Shown here in pieces: positions 3,990 to 22,201 of a DNA stretch of 22,664 nt (positions are counted from its first letter, which is position 1; every line of letters begins with the position of its first letter). The notes beneath the pieces are model-generated. The model saw only the letters and a list, made by a program, of their open reading frames with translations. It ran no database searches and was not told the DNA's origin. The translations under genes and the position numbers were made by a program. The DNA comes from a virus, in the IMG/VR virus record IMGVR_UViG_3300032892_000045, positions 1-22,664 of that record; one strand, given 5' to 3'.

Positions 3990-6900
3990 TACGCTGGCCA
4001 CCTCCCGCCACGCTTCAAGTCGGCCATTGCCTTAATCAGCCAGTTCTTCACTTCATGCTGGCTGCCAAGTACCCCGTGATTCTGGACGATAAGAGTTGTA
4101 TTGCCGCCCAGAATGCGCTCGGTCTGGGCATTCGAGTACACATGCGTCCCGCCAGGAAGCCTAAGCAGCTCACGACCTCTTTCACCCACCATGGCCAGGC
4201 CGCCTCTGGCTATTCCCCCATTCGCGAGGAACTGCATGTATGCACCGGAATTGTATGTTGCCCAAGGTGAGAATCCACCGGCCTGGTTGTACAGGTAGAC
4301 GGCTGCCTTCGCGTTGTTCAGCGCGTTCAGCAGGTTGCCGAACTTGCCATTCTGCCAGATTCCCGAGGTCGGCGTGATCTGCCACAATCCATATCCGGTA
4401 AGTCCTGGAGGCTCACCGGACTGGACAATACCAGCATTGTCTGTCGACTCGGTCATCGCGATAGCGGAAGCGATGTTTGCCGTTAGACCGCCAGGACCAC
4501 CGGCCTGCCGCCAGACCGCCTCAACAGCGCTCCGCGACATCGGCCCACCCTTGCCACCGCTGCCACCCGCGAATCCACCCGGAGGAATACCATACCCGCT
4601 TACCGCGCCGGCATCGCCGATGATGTTGTTGAACCGGGTGCCATACCCTGTAGCATAAGCATCGACAATCCGCTTAGAATCAACGATGATTCCGACATGG
4701 CCCGGACTGTACTGTGAGCCGTCCGAGCCGGCAAAGAAGGCTAGCCCGCCTACCTGTGGGGTAGGCGTACGCTTCACCCAGGCAAACTGATCCTCGGACG
4801 TCCGGGGAATCGAGTTGTACCCGAAATGCTTGTACACATAACTTGTGAATCCCGAGCAGTCCCAGCCCTGCGGAGTGGTGCCGCCCCATACATACGGAAC
4901 CTTGCCGATAAAGGACTCGGCGTATTTGACGATTTCATTTGCGTTGCCCGAGGTCGTCTCTTTCAGGACAGCAACCAGTTTGGAAATCAGCTCCTTGGGG
5001 ATGTCCTTTATCCAGGAGCCTAGTTTTGTACCTCCGCCTGGCATGGCATTCAGCAACGGATTGAGAATGGCGCTAGCAGCGTCCGCTAGCGCAGTCCCGG
5101 TCAACGTCTTGATCTTGCTAGCGACGGCCGGAGCACTAAGCACCTGCGGCAGGCCCGGTATAAGGCTTTCTGCACCCCTAACTATGTCCTTGCCGATAGT
5201 TATGGGATTGGGGATAATTCCGCCGAGCGCCCAGTGCGGACCGCTGCCTATGCTTCCCTTCTTGCCAAGGGCCGAGTCGATAGCCGAGTGGCCGCCGAGA
5301 TGGCTAACATCCGACAGCGACAGCACTCGTTCACCAGGAGTCAAGAATGCAGGAACATTGTCCTGTGTTCCGTGGCCAGGAACCCGACCGCCTTCAGAGA
5401 AAGAGATGCCACTCAGGGGATGCATCCCGATGACGCCGGCAATCGCGTCAACCACAGGCACGATGCCTTTATCATAGACTGTATTCACCAGGAATTTGAC
5501 CGGAGCTTCAGCGACGTCCTGAAGGCCGTGCCAGATGTTCTTGATGGCACCGACCGCAATGCTGAACGCATCCCTGATATCATTGAGGGTTGTGCCTATC
5601 CAGCTCTTTACATTGTTGAAAATGCTAGTCGTCGTATTGCGGATGTTTGTCCAGGCATTCGAAAACACATTCTCGACTGCGCCAAGAACAGACAGCGCAA
5701 TGTTCTTGATGGCATTCCAGACAGAGCTGAAATACTCCTTGATAGCATTCCATATCTGGACGCCGAAATTCTTGATGTCAGTCCATGCCTTGCCCCAGTT
5801 TCCGGTAATCAGATCCAGCGCAACCTTGAATATGGCTACGATAGCATCCCAGGTTACCTTGATGAACAGCCTTATTCCGGCAAATATGACCTTGGCAATG
5901 TTATCGACAAGCGACCAGGCAACTTTCCACACATTCGTGATGACGGACATTGATGTCTTGAATATGCCGGAAATAAGGTCAAATGCGACCTTGATCACCA
6001 AAGTAATATCGGCCCATACCTGCTTCGCCACAACAAGGATGCCGTTGAAATTCTTCTTGAGGTAATCGTAGACACCATTCCATATCTTCTGGATGAATTG
6101 CCAAATGTCATTATGGTACTTGTAAATGATGCCACCAACGCCAAGCAGAAGCGGCCACCATTGCTTCGCGAATGAAAGGATGTTATCCCATACAGTCTTG
6201 ATGACCTTGAAGATGTCATTCCAGGTCTTTACGATAAAGCTCGATATTTGGGTATGATATTTGATGATTACAAGCGCCAGGGCAGCAATGGCGACAACAA
6301 TGACCCCGATAACACTCGCACTCATCGTGAGGTTCAATACCTTGAATGCCTCAGACAGCGTCTTGATCGCCTCGGCTACCTTTGCCGCAACAGCCAGGCC
6401 AGCAAGCACTCCGGCGAAGATCACCACTACCTGAATATGCTTGGAAATGAAATCCAGGACTCCGCTTATGACCGGCAGCAACTTAGTGCCTATGGAGGCA
6501 GCGACGTCGGTGAGCTTGGCCCGCAGTACCTCCATCTTGCCGGCCGTTGTGTTCGCGGCTGCCTGGGCATCCCCTCCTATCCTCTGGTTCATTATCCTGG
6601 TGAATTCCTCCATCCGCTGTGCAGCCGTAGCGGACTTTGGTAGGACATCAATGCCTAGCTTGTTCAGCGCCGGGACGGAGCCTGCGGCTGCCTGTCCTAC
6701 AAGACTTTGAGCCTGCGCGAGTGACATATGGTGTTGCCGAGCGAAATTGGCTATTCCGCCGACCGAGTTAATCTGGTCGCCAAGGATCTTCTGCGCCGAT
6801 GCCGTAGCCTTAGACCAGTCTGCTCCGGTGGCCATTGTGATGTTGAGATCCTTCATCCCGCGAGCTTGGCCACCAGCAGCCTTGCTGACCATGTCGGCAG

Positions 6901-7985: not shown

Positions 7986-8387
7986 TCAGCTCCAGGCCGG
8001 AACGGTGCCGTCCGCAAGCGAGGCAGCAGCGGACCAGTTCAGGTCGCCAGTATTTGTACGGGCGACGGTATAGTCTGTGTAAAGATCCTCGGTGTTCAGG
8101 CTGGCGGTATTCACCGTCATGCTCGTTGTCCTGGTAACGGCCGACGACGTGACCGTTCTCAGCACATAGTGCACGCCAGCGCCATTGAACTGACCATTCA
8201 GCGTAAGCGAGAAGTCCGCAAGCAATAGGATCCGCTCTGTCGCTGTCTTGTCAATTCCGGTTACGTCGCTAGCTGCCCTTGGAGTCGAGAACTGGAGGTT
8301 TGTCACGTCATTCTTGATTACAGTAGCAGCACCCGTGATGTCATCGACGGACAACGTAGTCCAGCCAAGACCGGTAGCCTTAGCCAT
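7986..8387 (-). CDS. Major tail (tube) protein paralog 2
   Basis: A 133-residue protein, MAKATGLGWTTLSVDD at the start, and a clear paralog of the gene just upstream: both share DVTNLQFSTPRA, DVTGIDK.ATER, LLLADFS, TMTVNTA-like, GDLNWSA and DGTVPAW. It directly precedes the tail assembly chaperone, the standard order of major tail protein then chaperone then tape measure, so I take it as the tail tube subunit or a close relative of it. ATG at 8387 has a strong AGGAGGTGAACA leader. No signal peptide or membrane segment. Which of the two copies forms the tube, or whether both do, cannot be told from sequence. Confidence 0.7.
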   Translation of the reverse strand: MAKATGLGWTTLSVDDITGAATVIKNDVTNLQFSTPRAASDVTGIDKTATERILLLADFSLTLNGQFNGAGVHYVLRTVTSSAVTRTTSMTVNTASLNTEDLYTDYTVARTNTGDLNWSAAASLADGTVPAWS

Positions 8388-8410: not shown

Positions 8411-8821
8411 CTAGGTCCAGGCCGGAACGGTGCCGTCGCCCAGGACGCCAGGAGCCGACCAGTTCAGGTCACCGCCAGCCGCGCGAGTAATGGAGTAGTC
8501 GGTGTACCAGACTTCGTTGGTCATGTTCGCCGTGTTCACCGTCATGGCTGTTGTCCGCAGGTTCTGGTTCGTGAATGTCGGGACCGACTTGAACACCGTA
8601 TGCGCCAGCGCGGTATTCCACTGGCCGCTCAGCGTGATCGAGAAGTCAGCAAGGAGCAACAGGCGCTCGGTAGCCATCTTGTCGATACCAGTCACATCAG
8701 TTGTGGCTCGCGGAGTCGAGAACTGAAGGTTGGTGACGTCATTCCTGATGTCGACATTGTCATTGCCGAGAATCGTGTCGACCGTCAGCGTGGTCCATCC
8801 GAGACCAGTAGCCTTAGCCAT
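8411..8821 (-). CDS. Major tail (tube) protein paralog 1
   Basis: A 136-residue protein that opens MAKATGLGWTTLTVDTILG and ends DGTVPAWT. It matches its downstream neighbour along the whole length and shares the shorter signature VTGI[DN]K.ATERL with the larger tail protein at 9512-10276. This family occurs as tail tube-like protein in actinobacterial siphoviruses as far as I can recall. The start at 8821 follows AGAGGATGAACA. A gap of 23 bases with its own strong ribosome site separates it from the second copy, so both should be well translated. Assigned as structural tail protein by position and similarity to the neighbour. Confidence 0.7.
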   Translation of the reverse strand: MAKATGLGWTTLTVDTILGNDNVDIRNDVTNLQFSTPRATTDVTGIDKMATERLLLLADFSITLSGQWNTALAHTVFKSVPTFTNQNLRTTAMTVNTANMTNEVWYTDYSITRAAGGDLNWSAPGVLGDGTVPAWT

Positions 8822-9274: not shown

Positions 9275-9512
9275 CCTGTATCACCTCCCGGCTGTGTATG
9301 ACTACGGTCTTGCCTCCACTGTTATGGATTATCGAGAGCACGAGGCGAATCTTCTTGCCGGCCAGTTCCTCGGGAGCACCTTCATCCTCAACAAGCCACC
9401 AGTGCTCTCCGCTTGCCGGGCCTTGTTCCCATTGCTCAACTAGCCGGAACCCATCCGGCAGGACGGAAAGATCTATGCCATCAGCAACGAGGATGCTGTA
9501 TCGAGCGCTCAT
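9234..9512 (-). CDS. Small acidic protein between tail genes, function unknown
   Basis: A 92-residue protein, MSARYSILVADGIDLSVLPD at the start. It begins in a TGATG overlap with the stop of the larger tail protein and so is translationally coupled to it. It is acidic, with EQWEQGPASGEHWWLVEDEG in the middle and a Glu/Ser/Asp-rich end. Predicted alternating strands (IRLVLSIIH, KTVVIHSR) suggest a small beta fold. No motif I recognise. Its 3' end lies under the start of the next gene. It could be a tail accessory protein or assembly factor; no function is claimed. Confidence 0.6.
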   Translation of the reverse strand: MSARYSILVADGIDLSVLPDGFRLVEQWEQGPASGEHWWLVEDEGAPEELAGKKIRLVLSIIHNSGGKTVVIHSREVIQDAESEPESSGDAT

Positions 9513-10276
9513 CAGAATGCCTGCCCGGCAACTAGGTTCCGGCAGAACAGAATGGCGAACATAGCGTTTGTGTATGTTCCCGTTGTCTGCACTCGTGTCC
9601 AGCGCCGAACAAGCGCGTTGTTAGCAGTCGCAAGCCGTACGGCATAAGGACACATAGCCGGGGTGATCGCCCCGGTAACCAGCCCCGTAATGTCGACGTA
9701 GCTTGCCGGAGTGTCTGTGGTGAAGTCCTGAAGGTGTATTGTTACCGAGGTCCCGGTAACGCTGAACACCTGGATGTAAACCTGAGCGCCAAACGAGAGG
9801 CCAGCTTGGCCAGTGTCATCGTACCCGGCGCTGCTTGTTGTTGGACCGGTGGCGTCTGTCTGGATACCAGCTGTATGCTGGAATCCCCATTCGAGGCCAT
9901 AAGCATCGCTGCTGAGCGAACAAGCCAGCGACATTGATCCGTCAGTACCGCGCGTAGGGTCCCAGTTTAGCTGCCGGGCATTCATCGCAGCACCATCGTT
10001 GCCTATTGCCGTGCCCCGGAAGTAGGTCCCGATGACATCAGTCGTCGGCAGCTTGTACATACCGGCCGGGATGCCAGCACTGTATGGATTGAACCACGCT
10101 GTGAAGTCCATACCGGCATCGCGCTTCCCGCCGAGCCGTTCTGTTGCTGCCTTGTTGATTCCGGTAACCTCCAAGGCTGCCGGGCCACCGTTGATCTTGC
10201 TGAGCGCGCTTGTATCTCCGCTCAGATCAAGACCCTGAACATAAAAGTTATCGCCAAGACCACCGGTCTTTGCCAT
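9512..10276 (-). CDS. Tail tube-like structural protein (larger paralog)
   Basis: A 254-residue protein starting MAKTGGLGDNFYVQGLDLSG. It has the pieces EVTGINKAATERLGG, DFTAWFNP, YFRGTAIGN, NWDPTRGTDGS and YGLEWGFQ, which I recognise from phage structural tail proteins of actinobacterial siphoviruses. It shares the VTGI[DN]K.ATERL signature with the two small tube paralogs downstream, so all three may have one tube fold, here with a C-terminal extension of about 100 residues rich in Thr and Gly. ATG 10276 follows GGAGGTGTAGGCG. It comes right after the tail terminator gene. Whether it is the main tube subunit or a second tail component is open. Confidence 0.7.
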   Translation of the reverse strand: MAKTGGLGDNFYVQGLDLSGDTSALSKINGGPAALEVTGINKAATERLGGKRDAGMDFTAWFNPYSAGIPAGMYKLPTTDVIGTYFRGTAIGNDGAAMNARQLNWDPTRGTDGSMSLACSLSSDAYGLEWGFQHTAGIQTDATGPTTSSAGYDDTGQAGLSFGAQVYIQVFSVTGTSVTIHLQDFTTDTPASYVDITGLVTGAITPAMCPYAVRLATANNALVRRWTRVQTTGTYTNAMFAILFCRNLVAGQAF

Positions 10277-11617: not shown

Positions 11618-11893
11618 CTAGTCCCTCGGTCTCCGGCGCGCCAGGCGACGCAGGTGACGTCGCTGACGTTCTTGCTCGTGATGCTCGTGATTCAGTTCCT
11701 TCTCGTCCCTGTTACGTAGGTGCGGATGACGTCGCTGGGACCAGGGAACTACGCGGCGCGGAAGCCGCGCTGCTGCCCAGTCAGCCAGCCGACGCAGAAC
11801 GGACGGAGGTTTATACCTGTCGTCCGGATGCTTGCTCATGGCGTCCGCTTCTGCCTGGCGCAGAACCAGCTCAGCTTCTTCATCCGGATTCAT
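11618..11893 (-). CDS. Small basic Arg/His-rich protein, function unknown
   Basis: A 91-residue protein. The first 25 residues are acidic and helical (NPDEEAELVLRQAEADAM); from about residue 40 it turns strongly basic, with RRLADWAAARLPRR and a tail of Arg and His (HEHHEQERQRRHLRRLARRR). Such a tail suggests nucleic acid binding, perhaps packaged-DNA contact near the portal vertex, but this is inference. Start ATG 11893 overlaps the connector stop as ATGA. The low-complexity end makes family assignment unsafe. Confidence 0.5.
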   Translation of the reverse strand: MNPDEEAELVLRQAEADAMSKHPDDRYKPPSVLRRLADWAAARLPRRVVPWSQRRHPHLRNRDEKELNHEHHEQERQRRHLRRLARRRPRD

Positions 11894-12966
11894 GCCACCC
11901 GCGTCCTAGCGGCACGGGAGAATCGCGAGTTGCAAACACGTTCTCGCAAGTCTGGCAGGCCCGGACCGGCGCTAGGCCCGCCAGCGGACGCCAGCGGTCC
12001 GCTCGCTCCGCCGTAGGCACCATGCTCCTGCGCAAGCCAGACTATGGCCTCGGCGATGGACAGCTGCCGGATCAGGCCCGGCACGACGGACGCCGTAAGC
12101 GCGTCGCCGACCTTGTGCGTGGCTACAATGGTCCCTAGCGCTCCGCGGATGACCGTGAGGGTACGGCTAGCCCAGAGCGTCCCTCCGGCGTGAGCGGCCA
12201 GTACAGAGCCTTCGAAGGCCCGTTTCACGACCAGGTTGTTGCCGGCGATGTACTCAACGAGCAGCCACTCGGCATCGACCATCAAGATCTCGCCCTTGCT
12301 GAAGGCAGTACCGTCCGGAACCGCAACTATCTTGTCGGCCGCCGAGGCAGAGCTCAGCCCGGAGTAGGCGACGCCAGTGTCGGCATAAGCCGCGTCGGTC
12401 ACGATCATGCGCTCGGAGCCAGCAATAAGCAGATCACCAACACCTACCGAGCCGTCGCTTACCGTCACCGCAGTATCCACTATTGCCACGTCGGCCGCAA
12501 GGACCCCTGCTGACTCGGTCTTTGTCCAGTAGCCGAATGTGCCAGTTATGGCGATGTCCTCCTGTGGCGTCGAGTTGTACCCGAATGCTACAGAGAGATC
12601 ACGCCGTAGCTCAATTCGCGTATAGGGAGGCCCTGTATTTACCGGCTGGCAGATTACGTCAGGAATCGGAATGGTAACCGGAACAGGAAGCAGGGAGCCA
12701 GTTACTACTGCGGTGGGGATGTCCGCTAGCTCATTCTCGTCCAGATAGAGCTTCCACGGATAGGTGTACTGATAGTTCGGCCAGTCAAACTTGCGCGTCG
12801 CTGTCTCTGGGTAGAACTTTCGCTGCGTCAGCGCCTCGACTGCCTCAGAGGCAGTCAGGATGGCGCGATCAATTCTGTCGTAAGCATACTCAGCCAGCGT
12901 GACTTCAACTGCACGTCTGACTTGCTCCCGTGTGCAATAACACGGTCGAAAGATAATCGGCGCCAT
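11890..12966 (-). CDS. Head-tail connector (adaptor) with inserted repeated beta domains
   Basis: A 358-residue protein, about twice the usual adaptor length. Residues 10-60 (CTREQVRRAVEVTLAEYAYD, then IDRAILTASEAVEALTQRKF) look like the helical N-terminus of gp6/gp15-type head-tail connectors, and 299-320 (RQLSIAEAIVWLAQEHGAYG) like their last helix. Between them lies a strand-rich insert in which two motifs recur: DGSVGVGDLLIAGSERMIV (171-189) versus DGTAFSKGEILMVDAEWLLV (218-237), and VKRAFEGSVLAAHAGGTLWA (247-266) versus VIRGALGTIVATHKVGDAL (272-290). The C-terminal tail is Gly/Pro/Ala-rich. The start at 12966 is preceded by AAGG about nine bases away, after a 68-base spacer with no other feature. 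Confidence 0.7.
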   Translation of the reverse strand: MAPIIFRPCYCTREQVRRAVEVTLAEYAYDRIDRAILTASEAVEALTQRKFYPETATRKFDWPNYQYTYPWKLYLDENELADIPTAVVTGSLLPVPVTIPIPDVICQPVNTGPPYTRIELRRDLSVAFGYNSTPQEDIAITGTFGYWTKTESAGVLAADVAIVDTAVTVSDGSVGVGDLLIAGSERMIVTDAAYADTGVAYSGLSSASAADKIVAVPDGTAFSKGEILMVDAEWLLVEYIAGNNLVVKRAFEGSVLAAHAGGTLWASRTLTVIRGALGTIVATHKVGDALTASVVPGLIRQLSIAEAIVWLAQEHGAYGGASGPLASAGGPSAGPGLPDLRERVCNSRFSRAARTRVA

Positions 12967-13878: not shown

Positions 13879-14349
13879 TCAGGCACTCAGGATCTTGAGG
13901 TTCGCCGGACCGCGCTGGACAGCCAGGTCGTGCGTAACGGCTCGGACCAGGCCGCCACCAGTACTGACGCACTTGATGTAGGTGTACGCACCGCTGTCCG
14001 TGCCGGTCGAGTCAACCAGACGCCGGATGCCCGCTGTATGGACAGCAAATACCGTCATCAGGCCGGTGCTCGTGAAGGTAGCTGCGTCCGCGCCCAGGGT
14101 CACCCGAGTCCATGCTGCGCTGCCGTCGGCGGCCGTTGACTTGTAGTAGTGATCGATCGGAGTCCATGCCGGCGAGAAGCCAGCATAAGCTCCGGCCCGG
14201 TACGTACCCGTGAAGGCAGTAGCAATGGACACGGTGTAGGTGTCCGAGCCAGAGCAGACAAACGAAATCGTCGCACATTCACCTAGGTACACCGCAACGG
14301 TGTCGGCCGCAATGGGGATGACATTGAACAGCCTGCCAAGACCTTCCAT
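13879..14349 (-). CDS. Small head structural protein, paralog 2
   Basis: A 156-residue protein beginning MEGLGRLFNVIPIAADTVAV. It is a paralog of the gene upstream: shared MEGLGR.FN..PIA, EC[AT].I.FVC.G.DT.T, .Y.ST...G.A.WT, and a closing THDL.VQR.P.NL. Strand-rich, with two conserved Cys (in ECAT and FVCSG). It lies two genes after the capsid gene, so I infer a capsid decoration or head-surface role. ATG 14349 follows GGGGAG nine bases away. It has a longer central loop region than its partner (about 15 residues more). Confidence 0.65.
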   Translation of the reverse strand: MEGLGRLFNVIPIAADTVAVYLGECATISFVCSGSDTYTVSIATAFTGTYRAGAYAGFSPAWTPIDHYYKSTAADGSAAWTRVTLGADAATFTSTGLMTVFAVHTAGIRRLVDSTGTDSGAYTYIKCVSTGGGLVRAVTHDLAVQRGPANLKILSA

Positions 14350-14363
14350 TTATCTCACTCCCC

Positions 14364-14789
14364 TCATGCAACCAGGACGGCTAGGTTTTCCGGCTTCCGC
14401 TGGACTTCCAGATCGTGCGTCAGCGCCCAGACAAGTCCGCCGGCACCGCCATTCGTGCAGCAGACGTAGTCGAACGTGTCATCCAGCCATGCAGCGTGAA
14501 CCTCGATGGCTGTTATGTCGGCTGCACCCTGAACAACGGCATCAGCTCCTGACTGAGTCTGCTTTGTCCAGACAGCCGTACCGGCCGTGCTCGTGCTCTG
14601 GTAGAAGTGGGTGATGAGGGTGCTGATACCCTGCGCCGAGCCTCCGCCAGAGGTCAGTGCCTCGGTGATGGTAAATGTGTCAGCTCCTGTACACACGAAC
14701 GTAATGGCGGCACATTCCTTCATAGAAATGTACTTGCCGTTGGCAATGGGAACGGTATTGAACACCCTTCCCAGCCCTTCCATTGACAT
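14364..14789 (-). CDS. Small head structural protein, paralog 1
   Basis: A 141-residue protein, MSMEGLGRVFNTVPIANGK at the start; the paralog begins at the third residue. ATG 14789 sits five bases after AGGAG, so the extra two residues are likely real. Contains ECAAITFVCTGADTFTITEA and YVCCTNGG, then ALTHDLEVQRKPENL. Beta-rich and soluble, with no signal peptide. It is the first gene after the capsid gene, the usual place of decoration or head-fibre genes. Function is inferred from position. Confidence 0.65.
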   Translation of the reverse strand: MSMEGLGRVFNTVPIANGKYISMKECAAITFVCTGADTFTITEALTSGGGSAQGISTLITHFYQSTSTAGTAVWTKQTQSGADAVVQGAADITAIEVHAAWLDDTFDYVCCTNGGAGGLVWALTHDLEVQRKPENLAVLVA

Positions 14790-17663: not shown

Positions 17664-18758
17664 CTAACTGGTTGGTGCGTTCGCCGTTGACAGGACGAAG
17701 TGGTCACCTGCGGTGGCCGCGTCTGTCGAACTGCCGTGCGGGCCAGTATTCACGAGACTCTGGCTGTTGTTCGGGGCGACCAGTGCTCCGGTAGCTGCCG
17801 GGCTGATGCCTTCGGATGTAGTGTATGAGGACAGCGGAGCGCTGGACGCGCCAATGCTGGCCTCGGTGTACTCAAATGTCGCGACCGGCTGGCATGCCTG
17901 GGTGATGTAGGCAGCAGGCCCGATCAGCGAGGTGGATGCGCAAGGCACCATCGCGGTCTGGTTCTCGTTCACGCCCGCGTCAGCGTGGTTGAAGACCTGT
18001 GCTGCAGGAAGGTTCACGATCTTGGTGAACACGCCTGCCGCGTCCCCCGTCGCGCCGGTTGCGTTCAGGTCCTGCGCCGCGTACAGCACCTGGTCACGAG
18101 TCAGCGTGATCTTCACCCAATGGCAGGTGAACGTCCGGTGAATCCGTGGTGGCGCTGGGGTTACCGTCGTGGTTGGGGATGGGGTCGCTGTTGGCGCTGT
18201 CGTCCCGGTTGGTGTCGGGACTGGTGTCGTCGGTGCCGGAGTCGGCGGTGTCGTCGCCAGCGGTCCGCGCGCCACGCAGACCAGCAGCCACCGAACGCGC
18301 GACACCGCTCCGCTGCTGACGCTCAACCAGACCGAGTGTCCATACGGAACCGCCGAAAGACTGCTGCTGATGGACGATGGGCTGGCCAGCACGCCAGCAG
18401 TAGGGCAGCCCGGACTGGGCAGCACCCCGCTCGCGTAGTCGACTGCATAGGTCGTGCTCAGGTTCGTGCTCGCCAGGCCGAGTTGCTGCGCCTGGTTCGT
18501 CGCGCTCGAACACAACTGCACACCCTGGGCACCAGTCTTGATCGTCGTACCGTACTGAGTCGGCGTAACGACGGTCTGAACCTGGTTGTACCCGGTTGCG
18601 GCGGTCGTGACTGCGTTATAGCCGGCATTGCCATTCGGCGCAACCTCCGGCGTCGGCGAGACAGCAGCATACGCCGCCGTGCCAGCACCGATCAGGCCCA
18701 AGCCCAGACCGGCAGCGGCAATGCGAGACCGCAAAGAGAAATGTCGAAGCCTCTTCAT
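17664..18758 (-). CDS. Exported protein with Sec signal peptide and Pro/Thr linker, function unknown
   Basis: A 364-residue protein. Residues 1-31 are a classic Sec signal peptide: MKRLRHFSLRSR, hydrophobic AAAGLGLGLIGAG, and AYA cleavage site at 29-31; no lipobox. The mature part has a Ser/Thr/Val-rich first domain (about 32-165), a Pro/Thr linker (168-204) and a second domain (205-364). Six Cys (83, 118, 161, 212, 273, 289) could form disulfides, fitting export. No transmembrane helix follows. ATG 18758 follows AAGGA after a 32-base gap. It is out of place between portal and protease and is closed by its own hairpin, so it looks like an accessory (moron) gene. Superinfection exclusion or host surface change is possible; I know no family. 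Confidence 0.7.
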   Translation of the reverse strand: MKRLRHFSLRSRIAAAGLGLGLIGAGTAAYAAVSPTPEVAPNGNAGYNAVTTAATGYNQVQTVVTPTQYGTTIKTGAQGVQLCSSATNQAQQLGLASTNLSTTYAVDYASGVLPSPGCPTAGVLASPSSISSSLSAVPYGHSVWLSVSSGAVSRVRWLLVCVARGPLATTPPTPAPTTPVPTPTGTTAPTATPSPTTTVTPAPPRIHRTFTCHWVKITLTRDQVLYAAQDLNATGATGDAAGVFTKIVNLPAAQVFNHADAGVNENQTAMVPCASTSLIGPAAYITQACQPVATFEYTEASIGASSAPLSSYTTSEGISPAATGALVAPNNSQSLVNTGPHGSSTDAATAGDHFVLSTANAPTS

Positions 18759-18790: not shown

Positions 18791-20305
18791 TCAGCGAACG
18801 CTGCCGCGGCCGTTGCTCTTCACATCCGAGAATCCTGCTCTGATCAGTTCCGCAATGTCCTGGTACCGAATACCCTCCAAATCTGCGCTTGCCTGCGCTT
18901 GTGCGGCTCCGGGTGGTGCCGGAGGGGATGGTGCTGGCTGTGGCTCAGATGGCGCCTGCGTGGGTGCGGGCACCGTAGTGGTAGGGTTAGCTGGGGTCTC
19001 CGGCTCAGGGCTTGAAGGTGTCCCTGGAGGAAGCGCCACCCACCCCGGAGGCAGCGCAGCAGATTGGGTAGCTAGTTCGGCCAGATCCATATCCGGCAGC
19101 CCGACAACTTCCAGTACGTCATGCGGATCGTAACCTGCGCTGACGAGGGTCTTGGCCGCATTGGACTTAGCAATCAGCTCTGCGTTGTCTTCTTCCCGGT
19201 TCTCTGGGTTAGGATCATCAAAGTCAAACTCAACCTGCGGGTTAGCACCGAACATCTCAAGGTACTTTGTGTTCAGGATGTTCTGCTGGCGTCGCAGGCG
19301 CGGTACCTCGTGCCAGGCAATGTGGACCTCTTGCGCTGTTTGCGCATTGGCCCGGTTGACATCGGTACTGTCGCCGAGCATCGACTGGTGAATCCGGTAA
19401 GCCTGCCGGATCATGTCGCTCGTCACCTTGCGCAGCTCCGGGAACTGCATATCCTGCATGCTGTAGGTGTTTGGGCTCCAGGTTGCCCCCTGCTCCAGGA
19501 CCCCAACACGGTGCCCACGTGCAACACCCTGGTGCTGCTCACGCCAGCGGTCTGTGAACTCAGTGAACTCTTCATCGCTCAGCCGCTTGCTGAATGTCAC
19601 GATGCCGCCGGGCTGCGCGCTGTTCAGGAAGAAGTTCCTTGACCATTCGGCCGAGTACTTTGCCGCGTCGATATCCACGAGTATTGCCTGGACAGCACTC
19701 AGGCCCCTGTAGTAATCAGTGGGGTGCGGATACCTGAGCTGGATAACCTCGTCTGTACTGAGCGGAACCTGCTCACCATTCGGCCCGGTATACACCCAGC
19801 CAACGAGGAACTTGTCCTTGTCCGGAATCGGCTCCATCCGGTCCGGCCGCACAGGCCACATCTCGGTCGGGATGCTCTTACCAGTCGGACCTCTGCTGAG
19901 TACCCAGTACCATTCGCCGACCAGCTCCATATGCTGCCAGCCGATCTCACGAAACTCGGGGCCTGTCATGAACAAGTTGGGCCGGTTCCACAGCCGCAGT
20001 GCCTGGTGCTGAAGAACCTCGGTGCGCTGGTCGCTGCCCCGGTCAGTAGAGGCATACCTTACGCGCGCATCGGTGATCTTCTTGTACATCGACCAGCCGC
20101 CATAGCTCTGCGAGCCAGTACTTAGCAGCTGGATAATCGCGAACAGGGTACCTTGTGTCCCCATCGCGTTCATCATTGTGAAGCGGTCTGCTGTACCTGT
20201 TCCGTACAGACTGCCCTGGCCGCTGCCTCCCCATCGGCTGGGGAAGGGAATGGGGTGCCCCTGGGCCAGTATCTTGGCAGCCTTACCGAACAGGGACTTA
20301 GGCAT
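18791..20305 (-). CDS. Portal protein (HK97-type)
   Basis: A 504-residue protein forming the dodecameric gate for DNA entry. It matches the Phage_portal family (PF04860) in layout: MWPVRPDRMEPIPDKDKFLV, EVIQLRYPHPTDYYRGLSAV, SAEWSRNFFLNSAQPGGIV, FTDRWREQHQGVARGHRVGV and QAYRIHQSMLGD. The usual core ends near residue 430; the rest is a Pro/Ala/Gln-rich tail (APTQAPSEPQPAPSPPAPPG) that is probably disordered, then a short helix. ATG 20305 follows GGGGTG, a weak ribosome site, which overlaps the possible tiny gene's stop. Directly downstream of the terminase block, as usual. Confidence 0.9.
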   Translation of the reverse strand: MPKSLFGKAAKILAQGHPIPFPSRWGGSGQGSLYGTGTADRFTMMNAMGTQGTLFAIIQLLSTGSQSYGGWSMYKKITDARVRYASTDRGSDQRTEVLQHQALRLWNRPNLFMTGPEFREIGWQHMELVGEWYWVLSRGPTGKSIPTEMWPVRPDRMEPIPDKDKFLVGWVYTGPNGEQVPLSTDEVIQLRYPHPTDYYRGLSAVQAILVDIDAAKYSAEWSRNFFLNSAQPGGIVTFSKRLSDEEFTEFTDRWREQHQGVARGHRVGVLEQGATWSPNTYSMQDMQFPELRKVTSDMIRQAYRIHQSMLGDSTDVNRANAQTAQEVHIAWHEVPRLRRQQNILNTKYLEMFGANPQVEFDFDDPNPENREEDNAELIAKSNAAKTLVSAGYDPHDVLEVVGLPDMDLAELATQSAALPPGWVALPPGTPSSPEPETPANPTTTVPAPTQAPSEPQPAPSPPAPPGAAQAQASADLEGIRYQDIAELIRAGFSDVKSNGRGSVR

Positions 20306-20373: not shown

Positions 20374-20628
20374 CTACTCACTGACCTTCCACTCGAAGAC
20401 CAGGAGAAGGACGCCAGTCACGAGCAGGCCACTGAATACCGAATGGTAAAAGGCTGCGGCCGAAACACATCCCAGACCCAGCAGGCTATAGACATGGTCC
20501 CTGATATGGCTGGCTAGCGGCGCAGCGCGGCGTCGCAGCCGCGTCCTGATGTTAGGGGTCCACTTCGGCTTCCTCGGGCTGCCGTTGCTGCCATATGCCT
20601 GGAATTGCCGTGTCTCCGGGGCAGTCAT
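20374..20628 (-). CDS. Small two-helix membrane protein
   Basis: An 84-residue protein with a basic N-terminal half (NIRTRLRRRAAPLASHIRDH, 26-45) and two hydrophobic segments, about 47-62 (YSLLGLGCVSAAAFYH) and 65-79 (FSGLLVTGVLLLVFE). Predicted helical hairpin in the membrane with a positive cytoplasmic N-terminus. I recall similar small membrane proteins between terminase and portal in actinophages, with no known role. Its start makes TAATG with the upstream Acb2-like gene. A holin or an anti-defence partner is conceivable but not supported by motif. Confidence 0.65.
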   Translation of the reverse strand: MTAPETRQFQAYGSNGSPRKPKWTPNIRTRLRRRAAPLASHIRDHVYSLLGLGCVSAAAFYHSVFSGLLVTGVLLLVFEWKVSE

Positions 20629-20843
20629 TACTCTTTGTCCTCCAGTGCCTGGATTACGAAGCAGTCTTTTGCCTCACGGAGTTTCCTCAGTCCAGCGTTC
20701 AGCTCCGGCCCATCGTCAAGTATCTCTGTCATTTCGGTAGCCAGGTCATGAACCGCCTCTGCAACTTCAGCAGCAACCCCATCAAGCCTTGGGTTCGGCT
20801 CAAGCCAGTGCATCAGATGCTCGGTGCTGGGGTTCGTCGTCAT
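20628..20843 (-). CDS. Acb2/Tad1-type helical hairpin protein (candidate anti-defence sponge)
   Basis: A 71-residue protein. Residues 23-68 read as two helices: VAAEVAEAVHDLATEMTEIL, then DDGPELNAGLRKLREAKDCF. This fits the Acb2/Tad1 hairpin form as I remember it: EV..a...L.....elLp.g.e...aL.KLeeA. Known Acb2 proteins bind cyclic di- and trinucleotides of CBASS defence, and Tad1 binds the Thoeris signal; whether this one does is inference. It has no signal peptide or membrane segment. ATG 20843 overlaps the terminase stop as ATGA, and its stop is fused to the membrane-protein start. A different small helical role is possible. The ligand site cannot be judged from sequence. Confidence 0.6.
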   Translation of the reverse strand: MTTNPSTEHLMHWLEPNPRLDGVAAEVAEAVHDLATEMTEILDDGPELNAGLRKLREAKDCFVIQALEDKE

Positions 20844-22201
20844 ACCTGAAAGCTCCTGAAGATAGGCCGGATGCCAAAGTCCCGGTGCGCCGCAACATAG
20901 CGCATCGCGTCACAGCCGTGGTCATCCTCCTTGACTGGCCCTTCCTTCGAGCGGTTGGACCAGACGTACGCCGGTATCTCCTCGGCGGTACAGGTCGGCT
21001 TACTTGCCTCGGCCAGCTCCTCATCTCGCTCGTGAAGCGCATTCCTGATGATGAACAGCCGAGGCAAACCGTCTCCAGCCGGACGCAACCGCGTCTGTAC
21101 GGCCTCTATCCCCTCGAGAACGGACTTGTGCGCTGCCTCAGTAGAATGCCCCAGCTCTTTCTCTAGGGTTGCTCGGCCTTCCGCGTCGTGGTCGGCTACT
21201 ATGGAGCGCGGTCGCGGGGTTATCCAGCTGCCTCTTTCGTTCATCACCAGCGAGCGGATCGTCTGCGCGTGCTGATCGACCGTCCGCTTGGTGTGGTAGA
21301 TCTCCCGGTACAGGTACAGCCGCCCATCTGGATCCTCGGCCCACATCTGGCACACGAATGGGTTGGTGTATCCGAAATCAATAGACCAGAACCTAGGCCA
21401 GTTCATCGGAATGCCGCTGCGGTCTATATGGGCGCCAGCATTGTGCGGCACCTCATTCAGCAAATGGACGTTCGACCAGTCCTCATAGATAACACCCTCG
21501 GCCGCCACCCATCGCCCAAGCCGGAGCCGCTGAAATCGCACGCCAGTAAGGCTGTTTAGCTTGGCGATATAATCAATTCCCTGCTCTGTGATCGTGCCTT
21601 TGTGATCGAACAGAACAGGATTGTCCTCGTGCCGACTCTCCAGCATTGTCGTGATGCCCTTGTCACACCGGGACTTCAGCCAATGCTCAGGATGCTGCGG
21701 GTTACAATCGCCAATTAGCTGCTGGAACGTAATCGTCCAGTTCCGCAGCCGCGTCGTAAGTGCTTCCCAGTCGTTTTCAGTTAGCTCCGTAGCCTCTTGA
21801 ATATAGATGACGTCATACTCGGCGGACATGATCTTGCTGACCTTGTCCAGCCCGCCAATCGCAACAACCGATCCATTCTTGTACTGGTAACTTGCTGGCT
21901 CCTGTGCACTGCCGCCATAGTAGGTGACGTCGCCGCACTCAATCGCTTCTTTCGCGACAAAACGACGCCATGTAACCAAGGCTGTAGAGCTCAAGGTAAC
22001 GGCTGCCTTGCGCGCAATGAGTCCGCGCGCACCTGGATTCAGTAGCATCATGATATGCAACTTTTCCAGGCACGCGCGGCTCTTCCCGGTGCCTGCCGGA
22101 CCCGAAAGCAGCACCTCGGGATCTCTACATTTGAACACATCAGCACACGCACCTCGCGGAGAGAAGAGGTGCGTCAGCGGAGCGTGTGTCTGCGTCGTCA
22201 T
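20840..22201 (-). CDS. terL: Terminase large subunit
   Basis: A 453-residue DNA-packaging motor. N-terminal ATPase: Walker A GPAGTGKS at 34-41, Walker B-like YDVIYIQEA at 129-137 with E136 as probable catalytic carboxylate. The coupling motif region (IGDCNPQHPEHW, 163-174) is visible. C-terminal RNase H-like nuclease: D275 in SIDFGYTNP, D337 and D339 in VADHDAEG, and DDHGCDAMRY (426-435). The starting Met lies in ATGA with the small-subunit stop. It cuts and pumps DNA into the prohead through the portal encoded downstream. No inteins or frameshifts are seen; length is in the usual range. Confidence 0.95.
   Translation of the reverse strand: MTTQTHAPLTHLFSPRGACADVFKCRDPEVLLSGPAGTGKSRACLEKLHIMMLLNPGARGLIARKAAVTLSSTALVTWRRFVAKEAIECGDVTYYGGSAQEPASYQYKNGSVVAIGGLDKVSKIMSAEYDVIYIQEATELTENDWEALTTRLRNWTITFQQLIGDCNPQHPEHWLKSRCDKGITTMLESRHEDNPVLFDHKGTITEQGIDYIAKLNSLTGVRFQRLRLGRWVAAEGVIYEDWSNVHLLNEVPHNAGAHIDRSGIPMNWPRFWSIDFGYTNPFVCQMWAEDPDGRLYLYREIYHTKRTVDQHAQTIRSLVMNERGSWITPRPRSIVADHDAEGRATLEKELGHSTEAAHKSVLEGIEAVQTRLRPAGDGLPRLFIIRNALHERDEELAEASKPTCTAEEIPAYVWSNRSKEGPVKEDDHGCDAMRYVAAHRDFGIRPIFRSFQV

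Follow-up and report, generated by a model that had tools for sequence, protein, structure and literature searches.

Acb2, represented by Vs.4 of phage T4 and by the cyclic-nucleotide sequestering protein of cluster E mycobacteriophages (e.g. Xandras gp101), is anti-CBASS protein 2, of about 65-90 aa; as a homo-hexamer it binds cyclic di- and trinucleotides. Its hairpin belongs to the same helical hairpin superfamily as the hairpin part of Tad1, the two being joined in PF24729 (Acb2_Tad1_hairpin), and Tad1 (Thoeris anti-defense 1) has an added N-terminal beta-sheet domain (PMC12043709). The roles of residues at the T4 Acb2 pocket were taken from two Panoptes papers, PMC12657218 and PMC12657230. 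Binding of cyclic dinucleotides is abolished by the change Y8A, and Phe82 makes a stacking contact with the base (PMC12657218); the affinity is lowered by T68M (PMC12657230).

A 71-aa protein encoded next to terL in the window (the whole stretch of viral DNA that was analyzed, 22,664 nucleotides) had been predicted from its motifs to be a protein of this kind. Together with its relatives it resembles Acb2 in size, in a short stretch at the N-terminus that carries an aromatic-x-(x)-His motif and is followed by a predicted helical hairpin, and in the features of that hairpin, namely the turn P/D-G-x-E, the element K-L-x-E-A and an Ala-rich C-terminal end. Like Acb2, it is the product of a phage accessory gene found at times near terminase or holin genes.

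The gene at 20628-20843 and its neighbors

The 22.7-kb virus record is probably a fragment. Its terL was closest to that of Thermobifida phage P1312 (60%), followed by that of Streptomyces phage Dagobah (53% identical), which points to an actinobacterial host. The gene order is terL, the 71-aa gene, a small membrane-type ORF and the portal gene:

20840-22201, minus strand: terL (terminase large subunit), directly upstream of the 71-aa gene
20628-20843, minus strand (read from 20843 to 20628): 71-aa ORF of the phrog_5120/1761 family, remote homolog of the Acb2/Tad1 hairpin
20374-20628, minus strand: small ORF of 84 aa with a hydrophobic, membrane-type C-terminal half, between the 71-aa gene and the portal gene (phrog_502 membrane protein, E 7e-4)
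18791-20305, minus strand: portal gene, next downstream (PF04860, E 1.6e-51)

The original prediction had placed the gene at the right coordinates, with no strand given; it is encoded on the minus strand, in the translation of which the motifs that had been named were all present (EV at 26-27, LATEMTEIL, DDGPE and LRKLREAKD). The frame on the plus strand at 20628-20843 is unrelated to the 71-aa protein. Translational coupling with terL, also predicted, is visible as an ATGA overlap of the start codon with the terL stop codon, preceded by AGGAG. At the other end the TAA of the 71-aa gene overlaps the ATG of the 84-aa ORF (TAATG). Since genes for a Clp-type head protease, a capsid protein and a tape measure protein follow downstream of the portal gene, the 71-aa gene is located in a late structural operon, as had been proposed.

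The ORF was confirmed as a genuine gene by its match to phrog_5120 (E 3.9e-21, PHROGs v4), by homologs in 287 phage records (tblastn) and by third-position substitutions. Codon differences against relatives were concentrated at the third position (16/11/38 over 64 codons in the comparison with contig L023). The tblastn relatives include phages of Mycobacterium, Gordonia, Rhodococcus, Brevibacterium, Vibrio, Erwinia, Acinetobacter and Alteromonas. Based on a motif scan, the family motif is carried by at least 348 stretches from virus contigs and by at least 139 from bacterial genomes.

Relationship of the family to the Acb2/Tad1 hairpin

The 71-aa protein also matched phrog_1761 (E 3.3e-13), the profile of which is longer (148 positions, matched at 98-142), and all 76 relatives matched both phrog_5120 and phrog_1761. 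Both are annotated as function unknown in PHROGs v4, and current profile libraries provide the family with neither a name nor a function. Eight residues were invariant in the 76 aligned members: E47, R53, K54, L55, E57, K59, D60 and V63. An aromatic/His-x-H-L element, which resembles the F-x-[Y/F]-H of Acb2, is kept by 62 of 82 family members. A relative of the Y-x-H-L type is NVP1098O_27 of Vibrio phage 1.098. The window protein belongs to a subtype having P-N-P-R-L where other members have F-x-Y-x-H-L-P.

The HMM search that had been suggested as a check of the Acb2/Tad1 identity went against it, the 71-aa protein giving no match to PF24729 at E<=10 in Pfam. None of the 76 relatives reached the gathering cut-off of this family (27 bits), which was exceeded by the controls T4 Vs.4 (E 7.1e-20, 71 bits) and Xandras gp101 (E 5.1e-16, 59 bits). 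PF24729 was nevertheless the most frequent of the families that the relatives matched with marginal scores (six members, best E 0.024). Searches of Pfam, NCBIfam, PADLOC and PDB with the single 71-aa sequence revealed nothing beyond weak NCBIfam matches to hemophores, and these, with E 0.01 and below the cut-off, were judged to be due to chance. In PDB, HMM searches with family profiles returned designed helical proteins and unrelated chains alone, at E >0.01.

Comparison of alignments gave a different picture. When the 76 family members were compared with 56 actinophage Acb2s by hhalign, a probability of 95% (P 3.8e-8, score 39.9) was obtained over residues 24-58, a region which covers the D/P-G-x-E turn together with K-L-x-E-A. 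Of 200 column-permuted controls none scored above 19.3, and the reversed alignment scored 9.9. As a yardstick of accepted relatives, the same actinophage Acb2 set scored 25.3 against T4-type Acb2. Direct comparison of the family with T4-type Acb2 by hhalign yielded nothing (score 8.8), and the link to Acb2 runs solely via the actinophage type.

Rank tests were consistent in both directions. Among 19,464 ORFs from family loci searched with the Acb2 HMM, the top match was a true Acb2, and 98 of the 100 best were members of the phrog_5120/1761 family; conversely, the 50 best of 9,572 ORFs from Acb2 loci searched with the family HMM were all Acb2s. Cross-matches were seen in PHROGs as well: 17 of the 76 family members matched the Acb2 PHROG 1454 (best 3.2e-5), and 18 of the 56 Acb2s matched phrog_1761. 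Because of the hhalign result against permuted controls, the two-way rank test and these cross-matches, the family is classified, on sequence grounds, as a remote homolog of the Acb2/Tad1 hairpin and not as a member of it. The original identification is thereby retained as distant kinship; as an assignment to Acb2/Tad1 proper it conflicts with the scores below the PF24729 cut-off and with the loss of the T4 pocket residues described below. The Acb2 profile of the present analysis also matched Tad1 chains.

The true Acb2 at the top of the rank test is an ORF of 80 aa in contig L028 (4745-4987, 54 bits to the Acb2 profile), which overlaps or abuts a family member extending from 4944 or 4992 to 5216. 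This family member is of the P-N-P subtype of the window. The pair is located in a head-gene cluster, just before two ORFs which by appearance encode a scaffold-like and a capsid-like protein. It was the sole tandem of this kind among 160 loci searched, and it allows an Acb2 and a family member to be compared side by side.

The 71-aa protein was modeled with AF2, using 76 sequences, with a pLDDT of 96. Helices were predicted at 5-14, 22-41 and 46-70, and no beta strands. Set against the description of Acb2 in PMC10419184, the protein is predicted to be composed of a short N-terminal helix and a long two-helix hairpin, and the hairpin called for by the original prediction is thus seen in the single-chain model (helices 22-41 and 46-70). 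In contrast to Tad1, the model contains no N-terminal beta-sheet domain. A Foldseek search of PDB with the model listed no Acb2/Tad1 chain; this search has little power since in a control run with the model of a canonical Acb2 the T4 Vs.4 chain ranked first at a weak E of 1.9. No Acb2 was listed by VIA against solved structures, and the matches from both programs were generic helical bundles alone. In the viral fold library likely family relatives ranked first, while models named Acb2/Tad1 were found at ranks 8, 14 and 19, the one at rank 8 being the "Acb2/Tad1 hairpin" protein of Providencia phage PS3 (probability 0.95).

Two further arrangements of the hairpin were observed among the relatives. 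A protein of Erwinia phage pEa_SNUABM_46 (L387:2764-3192) has two hairpin matches in one chain, one of them partial, as if a six-fold ring could be built from three chains. In Gordonia phage Soos (L017:3572-4210, annotated gene 23) the hairpin is fused behind a beta-domain-like region and a Cys/His-rich stretch.

By motif alignment Tyr8, Thr68 and Phe82 of T4 Acb2 correspond to Asn17, Arg53 and Leu67 of the 71-aa protein, the alignment of Thr68 and Phe82 being anchored on (T/R)-K-L-x-E-A and that of Tyr8 on F-x-Y-x-H-L-P of the family. The position equivalent to Tyr8 is Y or F in approximately 70% of the family and Asn17 in the window subtype. The hallmark of the actinophage Acb2 C-terminus, M-F-W-A-N-A-A-I-A-R, is absent, the family having KDCFVxxAL instead, with K59, D60 and V63 invariant. 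Since the pocket residues of T4 are replaced, binding of 3'3'-cGAMP in the manner of T4 Acb2 is probably not to be expected of the 71-aa protein. Judged from its sequence, its ligand may be another signal, or there may be none.

Genomic settings and possible function

Members of the family were found in gene clusters for the head, the tail and lysis as well as in early clusters. They are located between terL and the portal gene in eight contigs (L022, L023, L024, L027, L089, L091, L094 and L095), between the portal and protease genes in L049 and L064, and between the portal and capsid genes in L086 and L087. In the Gordonia phages DumpsterDude (gp8) and Pimento a member lies between the capsid and connector genes, in Jumbo between lysin genes and in AGM3 after the holin gene; in Phayonce, RcZahn, Tonitrus and Finkle members occur in early/replication regions. 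No family member was found at the position following terL in the closest terL relatives. In Dagobah the slot of the 71-aa gene is occupied by an unrelated ORF which, by appearance, is HNH-endonuclease-like (L378:3263-3787). In Dagobah as in the window the portal gene is preceded by a small ORF of membrane type; the position after terL is a variable insertion site. Based on the scatter of the family over these clusters and on the slot in Dagobah, the gene behaves like an accessory gene.

The original prediction had taken the late placement of such a gene to raise the question of when it acts. The placement is not special, given the family members in lysis and early clusters and the canonical Acb2 genes that adjoin terminase and holin genes themselves (Malthus gp5 upstream of the terminase gene, Rima gp30 after the holin gene). 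The settings of the family and of canonical Acb2 were not separable: for each of them, 37 of 80 viral loci had head genes no more than 5 kb away, counts that are rough because some terL calls in the Acb2 set were not confirmed by Pfam. As canonical Acb2 shares the habit, a late position does not by itself suggest that the protein acts in a new way.

We consider it probable, with moderate confidence, that the 71-aa protein is a sponge from a sister family of Acb2, which sequesters a nucleotide immune signal with an altered ligand preference. Protomers would join head to head to form an oligomer. By binding and sequestering the nucleotide second messenger that CBASS, Thoeris or a related abortive-infection system of the host produces, this oligomer would keep the killer effector switched off. 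The ligand may differ from the 3'3'-cGAMP of T4 Acb2. A wider and distinctly tentative proposal is that an unannotated branch of Acb2/Tad1, present in phages of Actinomycetota, Proteobacteria and others, sequesters an immune nucleotide which is not bound by known Acb2s, in a pocket rebuilt on the invariant R-K-L-x-E-x-K-D. The tandem with canonical Acb2 might then cover two signals in some phages, and many members might be expressed late, together with capsid and packaging proteins able to trigger these defenses. If the family does consist of sponges, the known set of phage counter-signaling proteins would be enlarged, and the altered pocket would be a pointer to host nucleotide signals for which no sequestering protein has been described so far.

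The charged set R53, K54, E57, K59 and D60, at whose positions Acb2 has T, K, E, M and F, is invariant in the 76 aligned sequences and can also be read differently. The hairpin fold could be shared with Acb2 by descent and nucleotide binding lost, leaving a small protein-binding adaptor which, for example, blocks a host enzyme or defense protein. The absence of equivalents of Tyr8, Thr68 and Phe82, and of a direct fold match to Acb2 by Foldseek in PDB, would be in keeping with such a role. We nevertheless think it unlikely: the Acb2-like aromatic/His element is kept by most family members, one member stands in tandem with a canonical Acb2, and canonical Acb2s are themselves very diverse, as seen in the score between the T4 and actinophage types.

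The location inside structural operons could signify, instead of a sponge, a virion or assembly role, such as a small terminase-associated or capsid factor acting as a packaging or head-assembly accessory with terL and portal. Its occurrence in the terL-portal slot of eight contigs and in the capsid-connector slot of DumpsterDude and Pimento fits this explanation. Such wandering as is seen in Jumbo and AGM3 (lysis) and in early/replication regions is unexpected of a packaging factor, and in the closest relatives by terL no family member was found at the slot. A virion or packaging role is set aside because of the relatives in lysis and replication regions, and we regard it as improbable. It is more improbable still that the protein is an ordinary Acb2 missed by Pfam through drift, binding 3'3'-cGAMP and cA3 like the Acb2 of T4 or of Pseudomonas phage. 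The homology seen by hhalign and in the rank tests and the breadth of Acb2 families would allow it, but the changes are systematic and family-wide, with R53, K59, D60 and V63 fixed and MFWAN absent, and do not have the appearance of drift. A sponge with altered ligand preference therefore remains the preferred reading.

Other ORFs of the window

Several other ORFs on the minus strand of the window were noted. Between the genes for the portal and the head protease, 17664-18758 encodes a protein of 364 aa that starts like a signal peptide, is rich in Pro/Thr in its middle part and had no match in Pfam or PHROG. Just downstream of the capsid gene are two adjacent paralogs (13879-14349 and 14364-14789, MEGLGR.FN...), with no Pfam match. 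The 358-aa product of 11890-12966 showed a weak match, below the cut-off, to the Rider domain of K1 capsule lyase (E 1e-4). The adjacent paralogous ORFs 7986-8387 and 8411-8821, which begin MAKATGLGWTTL..., probably encode tail proteins, and a third, more distant paralog of these, beginning MAKTGGLG, is located at 9512-10276.
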